This document shows, piece after piece, positions 3,525 through 38,990 of a DNA stretch of 64,000 nt. The translations under genes and the position numbers were made by a program. The notes beneath the pieces were generated by a model. The model made no database searches. It saw nothing but the letters and a program-made list of their open reading frames with translations, and had not been told where the DNA came from. How positions within the stretch are numbered: position 1 is the first letter of the stretch; each line of letters starts with the position of its first letter. The DNA comes from Desulfobacterales bacterium (GTDB taxonomy: Bacteria > Desulfobacterota > Desulfobacteria > Desulfobacterales > JAHEIW01): assembly GCA_030066985.1 (NCBI GenBank), contig JASJAN010000021.1, positions 1 to 64,000 of the forward strand, written 5' to 3'.

Positions 3525-4061
3525 ATGAAGCCTCCCATCCAAACCACCCAATGGTATGTCATCACTGGTGCGCCTTGTTCAGGTAAAACTTCAGTCATCA
3601 AGCGCCTGGCGCAATCGGGCTACCCGGTTGTGCACGAAGTTGCGCGGGCCTATATTGATGCGCAATTGTCAGAAGGCAAAACACTGGAGCAGATAAAGGC
3701 TGATGAATGGGCCTTTGAACGCCAGATTCTGATGACAAAGGTCAAACTTGAAAGCAAACTGGCGCCCGATGACATCATATTTTTTGATCGCGCGATTCCC
3801 GACAGTATTGCCTATTACCAATTGTTGGGACTGGACCCCACAGAACCCTGGCAGAGGAGCCAAGCCGTTCGATACCAAAAAATTTTTCTTTTTGAACGAC
3901 TCAGCTTCCTGACCGATCCAGTCCGTTCTGAGGATGAAAAGACCGCCGGCCGCTTGAGTGATCTGATTGCCGAGTGTTATCGCGCACTGGGATACGATCT
4001 CATCCATGTGCCGCTGCTCAGCATTGAGGAGCGAACTGAATTTGTTCTACAGCACCTTTAA
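3525..4061 (+). CDS. AAA/P-loop NTPase (AAA_28-like) of unknown substrate
   Basis: A 178-residue protein with an N-terminal P-loop TGAPCSGKTSVIKRL (about residues 15-29) and FFDRAIPDSIAYY around residue 86, the layout of small nucleotide- or metabolite-kinase-like ATPases (AAA_28 group). No transmembrane segment or signal is visible. It converges with the pseudouridine synthase gene and overlaps its 3' end by 15 bases (4047-4061). The substrate cannot be told from sequence. The ATG at 3525 has only a weak ribosome binding site. Confidence 0.8.
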   Translation: MKPPIQTTQWYVITGAPCSGKTSVIKRLAQSGYPVVHEVARAYIDAQLSEGKTLEQIKADEWAFERQILMTKVKLESKLAPDDIIFFDRAIPDSIAYYQLLGLDPTEPWQRSQAVRYQKIFLFERLSFLTDPVRSEDEKTAGRLSDLIAECYRALGYDLIHVPLLSIEERTEFVLQHL

Positions 4062-5303: not shown

Positions 5304-6476
5304 TTAGCTGCGGTAGTCAGCGTTGATTTTGACATAGTCGATGGAAAAATCGCAGGTAAACACCGACGCCTTGCCGTTGCCGGCCTTTAAATCAATGGTA
5401 ATTGTAAACTCCGGTCTTTTGAGGACTTCGCTGGCTTGAGCCTCTGCTTTTTGACCGCACCCCATACCGTTTTGCACCATACATACATCCGCAAAAAAAA
5501 CATCAATCGCTTTCGTTTGAACCGGCACCCCTGCCCTTCCGACAGCACCCAGGATCCTTCCCCAGTTGGCATCTTCGCCAAACAGCGCTGTTTTAATCAG
5601 ATTCGAATGTGCGACCGTATCTGCAACTTGACGGGCATCGGCATCGGATTGGGCTCCCTTGACAACTACCTCGACCAGTTTAGTGGCACCTTCACCGTCT
5701 TTGACCAGCAGTTTGCCCAACGCCATTAAGACACTATCCAATACCCCCTGAAATATTTTCTTTCCGATGTCCTGTTTTATTTCGGCACCGCATAGACCGT
5801 TGGCCAACAATAGCGCCGTATCATTGGTGCTGGTATCGCCATCAATTGTGATGCAGTTCAGAGACCGATTGGTCGCGGCTACGAGCATCTCTTTGAGAAG
5901 TGCTGCATCGGCAGCAACATCGGTCATAACAAAACATAACAAGGTGGCCATGTCCGGGCGAATCATGCCTGCCCCTTTGGCAACACCGGTCACTGTAAAG
6001 GTTACCCCTTCTATCTGTCCTGTCTGGCTGACGATTTTGGGAACGGTATCGGTGGTCATGATGGCTTCGGCAAAATCGGAAATACCAGCCGGATCAAGCG
6101 CTTTAACCAGATCGGGGACCGCCTGTTGAATCCGGTCGACGGCCAAGGGTTCTCCGATAACTCCCGTGGAGGCCACCAAGACCTTCTCTTCTGCGATATT
6201 TAACCTATTGGCCGTCCACTGGCCCATGGCGAGGGCATCACGCATTCCTTTTTCCCCCGTACAACAATTGGCGTTTCCGCTGTTGACGATCACTGCCTGA
6301 CAAACGCCTGATGCTGTGCGTTCCATATCCAGAAGAACCGGAGCGGCTTTCACTTGATTGCGCGTAAATACGCCGGCAACGGTAGCCGGTCTTTCACAAA
6401 CAATCAGCCCAAGATCTTTCTGACCCTTTTTCTTTAATCCTGAAGTAACTCCCGCAAATTTGAATCCCTGGCACAT
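5304..6476 (-). CDS. argJ: Bifunctional glutamate N-acetyltransferase / amino-acid acetyltransferase
   Basis: ArgJ moves the acetyl group from N-acetylornithine to glutamate (and can use acetyl-CoA), closing the cyclic arginine pathway. The self-cleavage site and nucleophilic Thr lie in GAGMIRPDMATLL (about residue 185), and GDTSTNDT is also present. The frame stays open to 6749, but ArgJ homology begins at MCQGFKFAGVTSG. The ATG at 6476 has a GAGGAG ribosome binding site, giving 390 residues, the normal size. No other arg gene is adjacent. Confidence 0.93.
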   Translation of the reverse strand: MCQGFKFAGVTSGLKKKGQKDLGLIVCERPATVAGVFTRNQVKAAPVLLDMERTASGVCQAVIVNSGNANCCTGEKGMRDALAMGQWTANRLNIAEEKVLVASTGVIGEPLAVDRIQQAVPDLVKALDPAGISDFAEAIMTTDTVPKIVSQTGQIEGVTFTVTGVAKGAGMIRPDMATLLCFVMTDVAADAALLKEMLVAATNRSLNCITIDGDTSTNDTALLLANGLCGAEIKQDIGKKIFQGVLDSVLMALGKLLVKDGEGATKLVEVVVKGAQSDADARQVADTVAHSNLIKTALFGEDANWGRILGAVGRAGVPVQTKAIDVFFADVCMVQNGMGCGQKAEAQASEVLKRPEFTITIDLKAGNGKASVFTCDFSIDYVKINADYRS

Positions 6477-6709
6477 ATGCTCCTCACTGATTGGCAATGA
6501 ATGATGTGGCTCGATGCAACGCCTATAATATAAGAAAATAAAACAGCTGTCTACAGGGTTATCAACGTGCTTCGGTGATGCCATACTCCGGGATGGCATT
6601 TGACAGTAAGGTCCCTTTTCGCTACTTTGCAGACATAACCACCCAAACCCTAAGGTGAACACACAGCGCATCCTGGATGTTTCGCTGTGCTTTAAAGGAC
6701 CGAAAACGG

Positions 6710-6895
6710 ATGACCGAAAAACACCTGGCTGATTGCCCGCATTGTGCAAACGAGCTTATCATTGAAAGGGCTTGACCGTACGTTTATTTGCGCTGCAGGG
6801 GCTGCAGTCGGCGCTTTCCGGTCAAATTTTTCTCCGATTCCCTGGATGAAGAACTTGAATCGGCTCTCGGCAATTTGCCCTGCGACAGGTTATAA
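6710..6895 (+). CDS. Probable small selenoprotein with two CxxC motifs (in-frame TGA at 6773-6775)
   Basis: From ATG 6710 the frame reads 21 codons to TGA, then continues 39 sense codons to TAA at 6893-6895. The two halves form one coherent 61-residue protein. The first half has CPHC (residues 9-12), the second CRGC (29-32) and SLDEELESALGNLPCDRL at the end, so the zinc-ribbon-like pair of CxxC motifs spans the TGA (residue 22). A hairpin built around the TGA resembles a bacterial SECIS, and selA is present at 37536. An AAAGGA ribosome binding site lies about 10 bases upstream of the ATG. The permease gene starts 5 bases after the stop. The alternative is a nonsense mutation (pseudogene), which would not explain the hairpin. 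I recall a family of small dual-CxxC (seleno)proteins but cannot verify membership. Function is unknown. Confidence 0.8.
6772..6825 (+). promoter_or_regulatory. SECIS-like hairpin at the in-frame TGA
   Basis: TTGACCG (6772-6778, containing the TGA) pairs perfectly with CGGTCAA (6819-6825). The apex is CTGCAG (6793-6798), loop GGG (6799-6801), CTGCAG (6802-6807), extendable by C6791-G6810 and G6792-C6809 around a bulged T6808. The first apical G is 24 bases after the TGA. A UGA at the foot of a stem with G residues in the apical loop is the known layout of the E. coli fdhF SECIS bound by SelB. The fold is read by eye, not computed. Confidence 0.75.
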
Positions 6896-6900
6896 GACGG

Positions 6901-7812
6901 ATGGTGGTCAATAATCTTTTTCCGGTATTTGCACTTTTGTTGTCCGGGCATCTGCTCAAACGCGCGGGCATTACCAATGATGCATTTTTAGAGACGGCCG
7001 ACAAACTCATTTACTTCATTTTTTTCCCGGTATTGCTGTTTTGGAAAATTGGCGCCGCTGCATCGGACCACATCGGCGATCCTGGACTCTACAAAGCGGC
7101 GGTTTGTGCGGTGGTCAGTGTTTATGTTCTGAGCAGCCTATATATCAGAATCTTTAAAGTCGGTGCCTTTCAGGCCGGCTCTTTTTCCCAGAGCTGTTAT
7201 CGCTTCAACACCTATATCGGAATGGCAGTGGTCCTCAGTGCTCTGGGAGAAGATGGCGCCCGGCAGTTTAGTATTTTAATCGGACTTGTCATCCCGCTGA
7301 TTAACATTCTGGCCGTCAGCACCCTATCCTGGTTTGACAAAAATAGCGTATCGCTGAAAAGGCGGGCGTCGCTGACCGCAAAAGCTTTATTGACCAATCC
7401 CTTGATCATTGCCTGCCTTGCCGGCATCGCCTATTGGAAATGGATCGGCGGCTTTCCGATCTTTGTCGACAACACCTTCCGACTGGCCTCTTTTGTTACC
7501 CTGCCCCTGGCGCTGCTTTCAATTGGGGGCGCATTAACCCTCAGCGGCATCAAAACGCATTTCAGATTGTCCATGGTGGCCTGTGTGTTCAAATTAGTCA
7601 TTTTGCCACTGATCGGATATCTTTTTCTAAATGCCTTTGACACGGGTGGCATCTCATATAAGGTCGGCATGATCTATTTTGCATTACCGACATCAACGGC
7701 GCTTTACATTTTATCCGCACAGCTGAACAGCGATACACAACTGGCATCTGCGACCATCGCTTTGTCGACCCTATTGTCGTTTTTTTCTTTATCACTGGCG
7801 TTGCTCGTCTGA
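6901..7812 (+). CDS. AEC-family permease (auxin efflux carrier family)
   Basis: A 303-residue polytopic membrane protein with about ten hydrophobic helices in the two-half arrangement of the AEC family. It starts NNLFPVFALLLSGHLLKRAG and contains the family's conserved positions in FNTYIGMAV (about residue 103) and ALPTSTALYIL (about 258). Such carriers export or import small organic anions; the substrate is not predictable. It begins 5 bases after the small selenoprotein gene and is probably co-transcribed with it. No strong ribosome binding site is seen, which fits translational coupling. Confidence 0.88.
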   Translation: MVVNNLFPVFALLLSGHLLKRAGITNDAFLETADKLIYFIFFPVLLFWKIGAAASDHIGDPGLYKAAVCAVVSVYVLSSLYIRIFKVGAFQAGSFSQSCYRFNTYIGMAVVLSALGEDGARQFSILIGLVIPLINILAVSTLSWFDKNSVSLKRRASLTAKALLTNPLIIACLAGIAYWKWIGGFPIFVDNTFRLASFVTLPLALLSIGGALTLSGIKTHFRLSMVACVFKLVILPLIGYLFLNAFDTGGISYKVGMIYFALPTSTALYILSAQLNSDTQLASATIALSTLLSFFSLSLALLV

Positions 7813-7842
7813 TCAGACATGCACGCGCCCAAATGGCTGAGA

Positions 7843-37535: not shown

Positions 37536-38990
37536 ATGACAAAAGCAAAATCACAAAAGAAAAAATTGGTGGCCATTGCGCCGGATCAACAGGCGCTGTT
37601 GCGCAAGCTACCAGGTGTGGATTACCTGCTAGACCTGGTTTCAAAAGAAGCATTCTTTGAAAGCATTCCACATTCGGTGGTTGTCAATTCAATTCGTGAT
37701 GTCATCGCTCGCAAACGACAACAAATCCTCGACAAGGATTCTGCGATAGACCAAAACAGCGTGTCAGATAAGCAAATGACAGATGCGGTGGCACAGGCGG
37801 TTCGCAAAGCCATGACGCCGAACCTCAAACGCACGATCAATGCAACCGGGATTGTGGTCCATACCAATTTGGGCCGCTCTTTGCTGGCGCCTGAGGTAAT
37901 TGACAACCTCTTGGCGATTGCCGGCCGTTATTCTAATCTGGAATACGATCTGGCGGCAGGCAAAAGGGGGTCGCGCTACAGCAATGTCGAAGCGTTGATC
38001 TGTGAAATCAGCGGGGCAGAGGCAGCTTTAGCCGTTAACAACAATGCCGGTGCGGTTCTTTTGAGCCTGGATACCTTGGCTAGAGATAAAGAAGTGATTG
38101 TCTCCCGCGGTGAACTCGTTGAAATCGGTGGGTCCTTCCGGGTGCCGGACGTGATGGCCAAAAGCGGTGCGATTCTCAAAGAAGTCGGAACCACCAACCG
38201 CACGCATCTGAAAGATTATGAGACGGCTATCGGACCGCAATCCGGCTTACTGTTAAAAGTCCACACCAGCAACTACAGCGTTGTCGGTTTCACGGCGGAA
38301 GTTTCATTGCGAGAGCTGGTTGACCTGGGTGCAGCGCACCAACTGCCGGTCATGGAGGATCTTGGCAGCGGCACGTTTATTGATTTTTCAAAGTACGGCC
38401 TGCTCAAAGAGCCCACTGTTCAGGAATCCGTTAATACCGGAACCGATGTGATTGCCTTCAGCGGCGATAAGCTGCTGGGCGGTCCCCAGGCCGGCATTAT
38501 TGTCGGCAAAAAGAAAGTCATCGATGCCATCAAGCAAAACCCGATGACACGAGCGCTGCGAATTGATAAACTCACACTGGCCGCATTGGAGGGCACCCTG
38601 CGACTGTACCGTGACGAAGCAAAGGCTGCACGCAATATACCCACTTTGCAGATGATCATGCTGTCATTGCCTGAAATCCAAGCCCGCGCCCAAGAATTAG
38701 CTGAGCGCCTGAAGCGAATCGATGATTCCCGCATGCACATCCACCTACTGGAACGCGCTTCCAAAACCGGAGGCGGTGCGTTGCCGCTTATGGAGCTTCC
38801 CAGTTTGTGTATTGGCGTCCAAATCGATGGCGTATCGCCCAACAAGCTGGAAAAAATGATGCGCCAAAACGATCCCCCTATTGTTGGCCGAATTGAAGAT
38901 GACTTGTTTGTAATGGATCCGCGAACCATCCAGATGGACGAGGTCGCGATAATTGAAACGGCATTTAAAAATCGGATAATGAAAGCCTGA
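37536..38990 (+). CDS. selA: L-seryl-tRNA(Sec) selenium transferase
   Basis: SelA converts Ser-tRNA(Sec) to Sec-tRNA(Sec) using selenophosphate. The PLP Lys is in IAFSGDKLLGGPQAG (about residue 310), with TNLGRSLLAPE near 110, YSNLEYDL (about 133) and the N-terminal tRNA-binding part (residues 1-90, LPGVDYLL). The length of 484 is normal. selB, selD and selC are not seen here, so they lie elsewhere or the set is dispersed. It predicts selenoproteins, one candidate being at 6710. The TPR gene starts 1 base after its stop codon. Confidence 0.95.
   Translation: MTKAKSQKKKLVAIAPDQQALLRKLPGVDYLLDLVSKEAFFESIPHSVVVNSIRDVIARKRQQILDKDSAIDQNSVSDKQMTDAVAQAVRKAMTPNLKRTINATGIVVHTNLGRSLLAPEVIDNLLAIAGRYSNLEYDLAAGKRGSRYSNVEALICEISGAEAALAVNNNAGAVLLSLDTLARDKEVIVSRGELVEIGGSFRVPDVMAKSGAILKEVGTTNRTHLKDYETAIGPQSGLLLKVHTSNYSVVGFTAEVSLRELVDLGAAHQLPVMEDLGSGTFIDFSKYGLLKEPTVQESVNTGTDVIAFSGDKLLGGPQAGIIVGKKKVIDAIKQNPMTRALRIDKLTLAALEGTLRLYRDEAKAARNIPTLQMIMLSLPEIQARAQELAERLKRIDDSRMHIHLLERASKTGGGALPLMELPSLCIGVQIDGVSPNKLEKMMRQNDPPIVGRIEDDLFVMDPRTIQMDEVAIIETAFKNRIMKA

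Follow-up and report, generated by a model that had tools for sequence, protein, structure and literature searches.

Does the TGA codon inside a short reading frame of a Desulfobacterales genome end a peptide of 21 residues, or is it read as selenocysteine within a protein of 61? The frame lies at positions 6710-6895 of the window, the whole 64,000-nucleotide stretch of DNA that was analysed, and a first-pass annotation had taken it for a candidate selenoprotein with two CxxC pairs and a SECIS-like hairpin. Translation confirms the course described there, a single frame running from the ATG at 6710 past the TGA at 6773-6775 to the TAA at 6893-6895, and with TGA read as U the product is MTEKHLADCPHCANELIIERAUPYVYLRCRGCSRRFPVKFFSDSLDEELESALGNLPCDRL. 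The features of the locus, together with selA, are the following:

6694-6699, plus strand: AAAGGA, a likely ribosome-binding sequence some 10 nt upstream of the ATG, as read from the sequence
6710-6895, plus strand: gene of a very probable 61-residue selenoprotein, family NF041197, stop codon TAA included (translation with TGA as U; NF041197 match)
6734-6745, plus strand: first CxxC (CPHC), its Cys columns invariant in 57 homologues
6773-6775, plus strand: in-frame TGA, almost certainly selenocysteine 22, homologues having either Cys or TGA at this position
6793-6807, plus strand: upper hairpin CTGCAG-GGG-CTGCAG, the putative SECIS, loop at 6799-6801, overlapping the second CxxC codons; stem pairing and loop G are kept only where TGA is present (synonymous-codon test)
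6794-6805, plus strand: second CxxC (CRGC), its Cys columns likewise invariant in 57 homologues
6881-6892, plus strand: C-terminal CDRL tail with the fifth Cys (from counts of the C-terminal tetrapeptide)
37536-38990, plus strand: selA, L-seryl-tRNA(Sec) selenium transferase (TIGR00474, 614 bits, cut-off 267.9)

A catalogued family with Sec or Cys at one position

The frame matches the NCBIfam model NF041197, 'dual CXXC motif small (seleno)protein', along its entire length (profile 1-53 of 53) with 69.7 bits, the curated cut-off being 40 bits. The small bacterial selenoproteins of this family had been catalogued before, and the gene is one more of them. This family has been listed as hypothetical protein OS_HP3, with the motif RxU, and credited to Zhang and Gladyshev 2007 (PMC13188914). 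The protein described here shares with it both CxxC pairs, the Sec/Cys position, the length and the C-terminal end, and its R-A-U corresponds to RxU; what the locus adds is only a new sequence, together with a SECIS shown to coincide with the codons of the second CxxC. The expectation that such a gene would be missed or called a pseudogene was too pessimistic, since NCBI already has a model by which it can be found. In one genome, by its own report, deep-Sep failed to pick up OS_HP3 (PMC12013277).

Within the same order, the family is matched in 187 of 291 sampled genomes, and nearly all of the rows shown carry exactly one internal stop, only four having none. The phylum sample gives matches in 112 of 395 genomes, with Cys and TGA forms mixed. 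In most rows shown from the two samples there is an in-frame stop, in every case TGA, with neither TAA nor TAG seen; other lineages have Cys in place of the TGA at the Sec position. Relatives of the kind that the first-pass annotation had proposed to search for, with Cys or an in-frame TGA at position 22, therefore exist. Across 57 homologues the invariant alignment columns are C9, C12, U22, C29 and C32, with Cys or Sec between the two CxxC pairs. For the comparisons, 93 genes of the subfamily were extracted, 65 with TGA and 28 with a Cys codon; because the pattern used to extract them admitted only Sec or Cys in between the two CxxC pairs, and four fetched loci of weaker matches fell outside it, the rule of 'Sec or Cys only' depends in part on the extraction.

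On the tree of the subfamily, well-supported branches show no fewer than two exchanges between Sec and Cys, and parsimony counts five changes; in one case a Sec form and a Cys form are paired inside a single genus (L051 and L036, support 92/90). The same analysis separates the RxU from a GxU clade with 100/100 support. This second UGA-coded subfamily, CxxCGGxAxIxG[RK]U..A[RK]VxCxxCG, was seen at about position 4000 of each of the loci L088-L107. The two are often found together in a genome, although a single query found no member of the second in the present one. The second subfamily resembles the first in its C..C - U - C..C layout and in a UGA with a hairpin downstream, and differs from it in forming its own clade, in the GxU motif and in having no DR[LI] end. 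The NF041197 model spans two clades, as part of this second subfamily also scores above its cut-off. Judged by its motif, the GxU clade is probably 'hypothetical protein DW', a GxU entry of deep-Sep (PMC12013277) that has been assigned to NF041197 (PMC13188914).

A hairpin across the codons of the second CxxC

The upper hairpin consists of a 6-bp stem (6793-6798 with 6802-6807) and a 3-nt loop, and, as expected of a bacterial SECIS, it stands just downstream of the UGA and has G in its apical loop (GGG). An Rfam scan of 6400-7200 gave no match up to E = 1. The region folds with no better energy than shuffles of it (z = -0.43), so that the significance of the hairpin rests on comparison between genes. 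These all have the same distance between the TGA and the second CxxC and can therefore be stacked without gaps. At least five of the six upper-stem pairs together with the loop G are found in 56/65 TGA forms versus 1/28 Cys forms. The loop G by itself is present in 63/65 versus 15/28 (p = 1e-6) and, apart from two stem pairs that come free with the Cys codons, the remaining four differ between TGA and Cys forms (p = 6e-5 to 7e-4); these p-values, like those below, treat related genes as independent and thus overstate the significance, but the effect is large and spans many families.

Since the two forms differ in amino acids as well, synonymous codons were tested where the second CxxC has its first x, at the codon whose last base is the loop G. 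Arg is written there as AGG in 29 of 32 cases, compared with 68 of the 420 Arg codons at other positions of these genes (p = 3e-18), and Lys as AAG in all 15 cases, compared with 61 of 202 elsewhere (p = 5e-8). The position is occupied by 13 different codons for ten amino acids, and the last base is G in 63/65 genes. By this pattern of codon choice, the constraint at the loop-G codon is one that acts on the RNA.

The hairpin CTGCAG-GGG-CTGCAG, to which the first-pass annotation had drawn attention, is accordingly present, conserved in TGA homologues and missing in Cys homologues. The 7-bp stem at the TGA that was proposed along with it (6772-6778 with 6819-6825) fares differently, as it pairs 7/7 in this gene but 4/7 in L108 and 5/7 in L142, and among 66 TGA forms the full pairing occurs here only; the SECIS comprises the upper hairpin alone.

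Decoding of the TGA

SelA, which had been named as the maker of Sec-tRNA at 37536, is real by its score and lies in the window, and the genome as a whole holds the full decoding set of selA, selB, selC and selD. SelB scores 376 bits (cut-off 242), and tRNA-Sec, with anticodon TCA, 75 bits (gathering 47); the absence of selB or selC had been offered as grounds for rejecting the reading, and both are there. SelD scores 356 bits (G000:C48:37903-38817, L138) and contains one in-frame TGA, so that it is probably a selenoprotein itself. As SelA is found in 355/395 phylum genomes, its co-occurrence with the family is not discriminating; two genomes (G005 and G042, L080) have a TGA form and no SelA match, which is probably a matter of missing data, both being fragmented and 67-79% complete.

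The code behind the TGA was compared over 39 codons with that of the nearest relative (L108, protein 87% identical), giving 13 synonymous and 3 nonsynonymous changes, with 12 of the 16 base differences at third positions; the comparison with L142 gives 10 synonymous and 6 nonsynonymous changes. With synonymous changes in such excess, the part of the frame behind the TGA is under purifying selection.

That the TGA is a true stop, behind a 21-residue peptide and in front of decayed sequence, agrees with translation table 11 and with the unremarkable folding energy of the hairpin region, yet a pseudogene is hard to reconcile with purifying selection that goes on past the TGA, with a TGA that almost every relative in the order has retained and with a hairpin and loop G that track TGA and not Cys. 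It is strongly disfavoured, and its chance appears minimal. Passage through the TGA without SelB, by suppression or by insertion of another residue such as Trp, has nothing specific in its favour, although a stop codon can be read through with no hairpin at all; Cys as the sense counterpart among homologues, the SECIS-type constraint and the complete Sec machinery of the genome leave it just as improbable.

Selenocysteine is supported computationally by family membership, the exchange of Sec and Cys, selection after the UGA, the RNA-level constraint on the hairpin and the complete machinery, and the decoding of UGA 6773-6775 as Sec, as first proposed, is near certain; with very high probability, the locus is a SelB-dependent selenoprotein gene whose internal TGA is read in this way. 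When a ribosome reaches this UGA, SelB carrying Sec-tRNA(UCA) would bind the hairpin at 6793-6807 (loop GGG), which starts 17 nt past the UGA, and translation, instead of terminating, would go on with selenocysteine at residue 22 to the full 61-residue protein.

Fold, possible role and gene neighbourhood

The structure model is of low confidence (pLDDT 65.5, pTM 0.42), with strands at 15-21, 24-29 and 35-37, a C-terminal helix and residue 22 at the turn between the first two strands. Profile and fold matches are weak and mainly to zinc ribbons. Small zinc ribbons such as Lar, YnfU, ECs_2282, the RPB9 N-terminal ribbon and Trm112 likewise have two CxxC pairs around a beta-hairpin, but every match to them is below threshold, and none of them is known to contain selenocysteine. 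Given the poor model and the weak fold matches, the zinc-ribbon assignment rests on the CxxC spacing and the weak profile matches, which suggest that the four Cys of the two pairs may hold one zinc in a zinc-ribbon fold. An identity with Trm112 was rejected for its sub-threshold match. A LysW-type carrier protein was weighed for the adjoining argJ and the conserved C-terminal end, and was set aside because argJ, divergently oriented, is found in near relatives alone and the tail is not the same.

By the model, Sec22 would be exposed where the first beta-hairpin turns. A fifth Cys is found near the C-terminus of about 50 of the 65 TGA forms. Sec22 may act as a redox-active residue, with the fifth Cys, in the CDRL tail, as a possible partner that could resolve a selenenyl-sulfide; the biochemical role proposed here is a guess, and a tentative one. 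The earlier wording of a 'redox or metal protein' is plausible as a hypothesis. Granted Sec decoding, selenocysteine might instead bind zinc or another metal directly, as in storage, a chaperone or a sensor, and not be redox-active. The two invariant CxxC pairs and the weak zinc-ribbon profile matches would suit such a ligand; in a normal zinc ribbon, the hairpin turn is the end away from the CxxC pairs, and the low-confidence model puts residue 22 at that turn, which makes direct ligation rather unlikely. Returning to an exposed, redox-active Sec22, a new functional class, namely a zinc ribbon with selenocysteine at the hairpin tip and the fifth Cys of a CDR[LI] tail as resolving partner, serving general thiol or metal handling in anaerobic bacteria, is a speculative possibility.

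An AEC-type permease (6901-7812; weak match to the auxin efflux carrier model TIGR00946, 48.7 bits) starts 5 nt after the stop of the gene and is followed by truA at 7819, and argJ lies divergently on the left. The permease had been noted as a neighbour, and it does adjoin the gene, but the link is kept only in near relatives: of about 80 loci, only the window, L108 and L055 have it. Elsewhere the neighbours, compared by eye, differ by lineage (truA, argJ, fabD, asd, pyrE, topA, alaS and others), and the permease therefore says little on function; clustering of neighbouring ORFs over the roughly 80 loci found no functional linkage. Elsewhere in the window, at 232-901 on the minus strand, lies a cluster of four tRNA genes (Thr-GGT, Gly-TCC, Tyr-GTA and Thr-TGT).

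A UGA-containing mini-protein called from raw sequence is thus, very probably, a true selenoprotein, and its family is widespread in its order. The codons of its second CxxC double as the SECIS stem, so that one conserved motif serves both protein and RNA, and this dual use leaves a clean synonymous-codon signature, AGG or AAG before the loop, which could help to find other short selenoproteins that are missed by tools.
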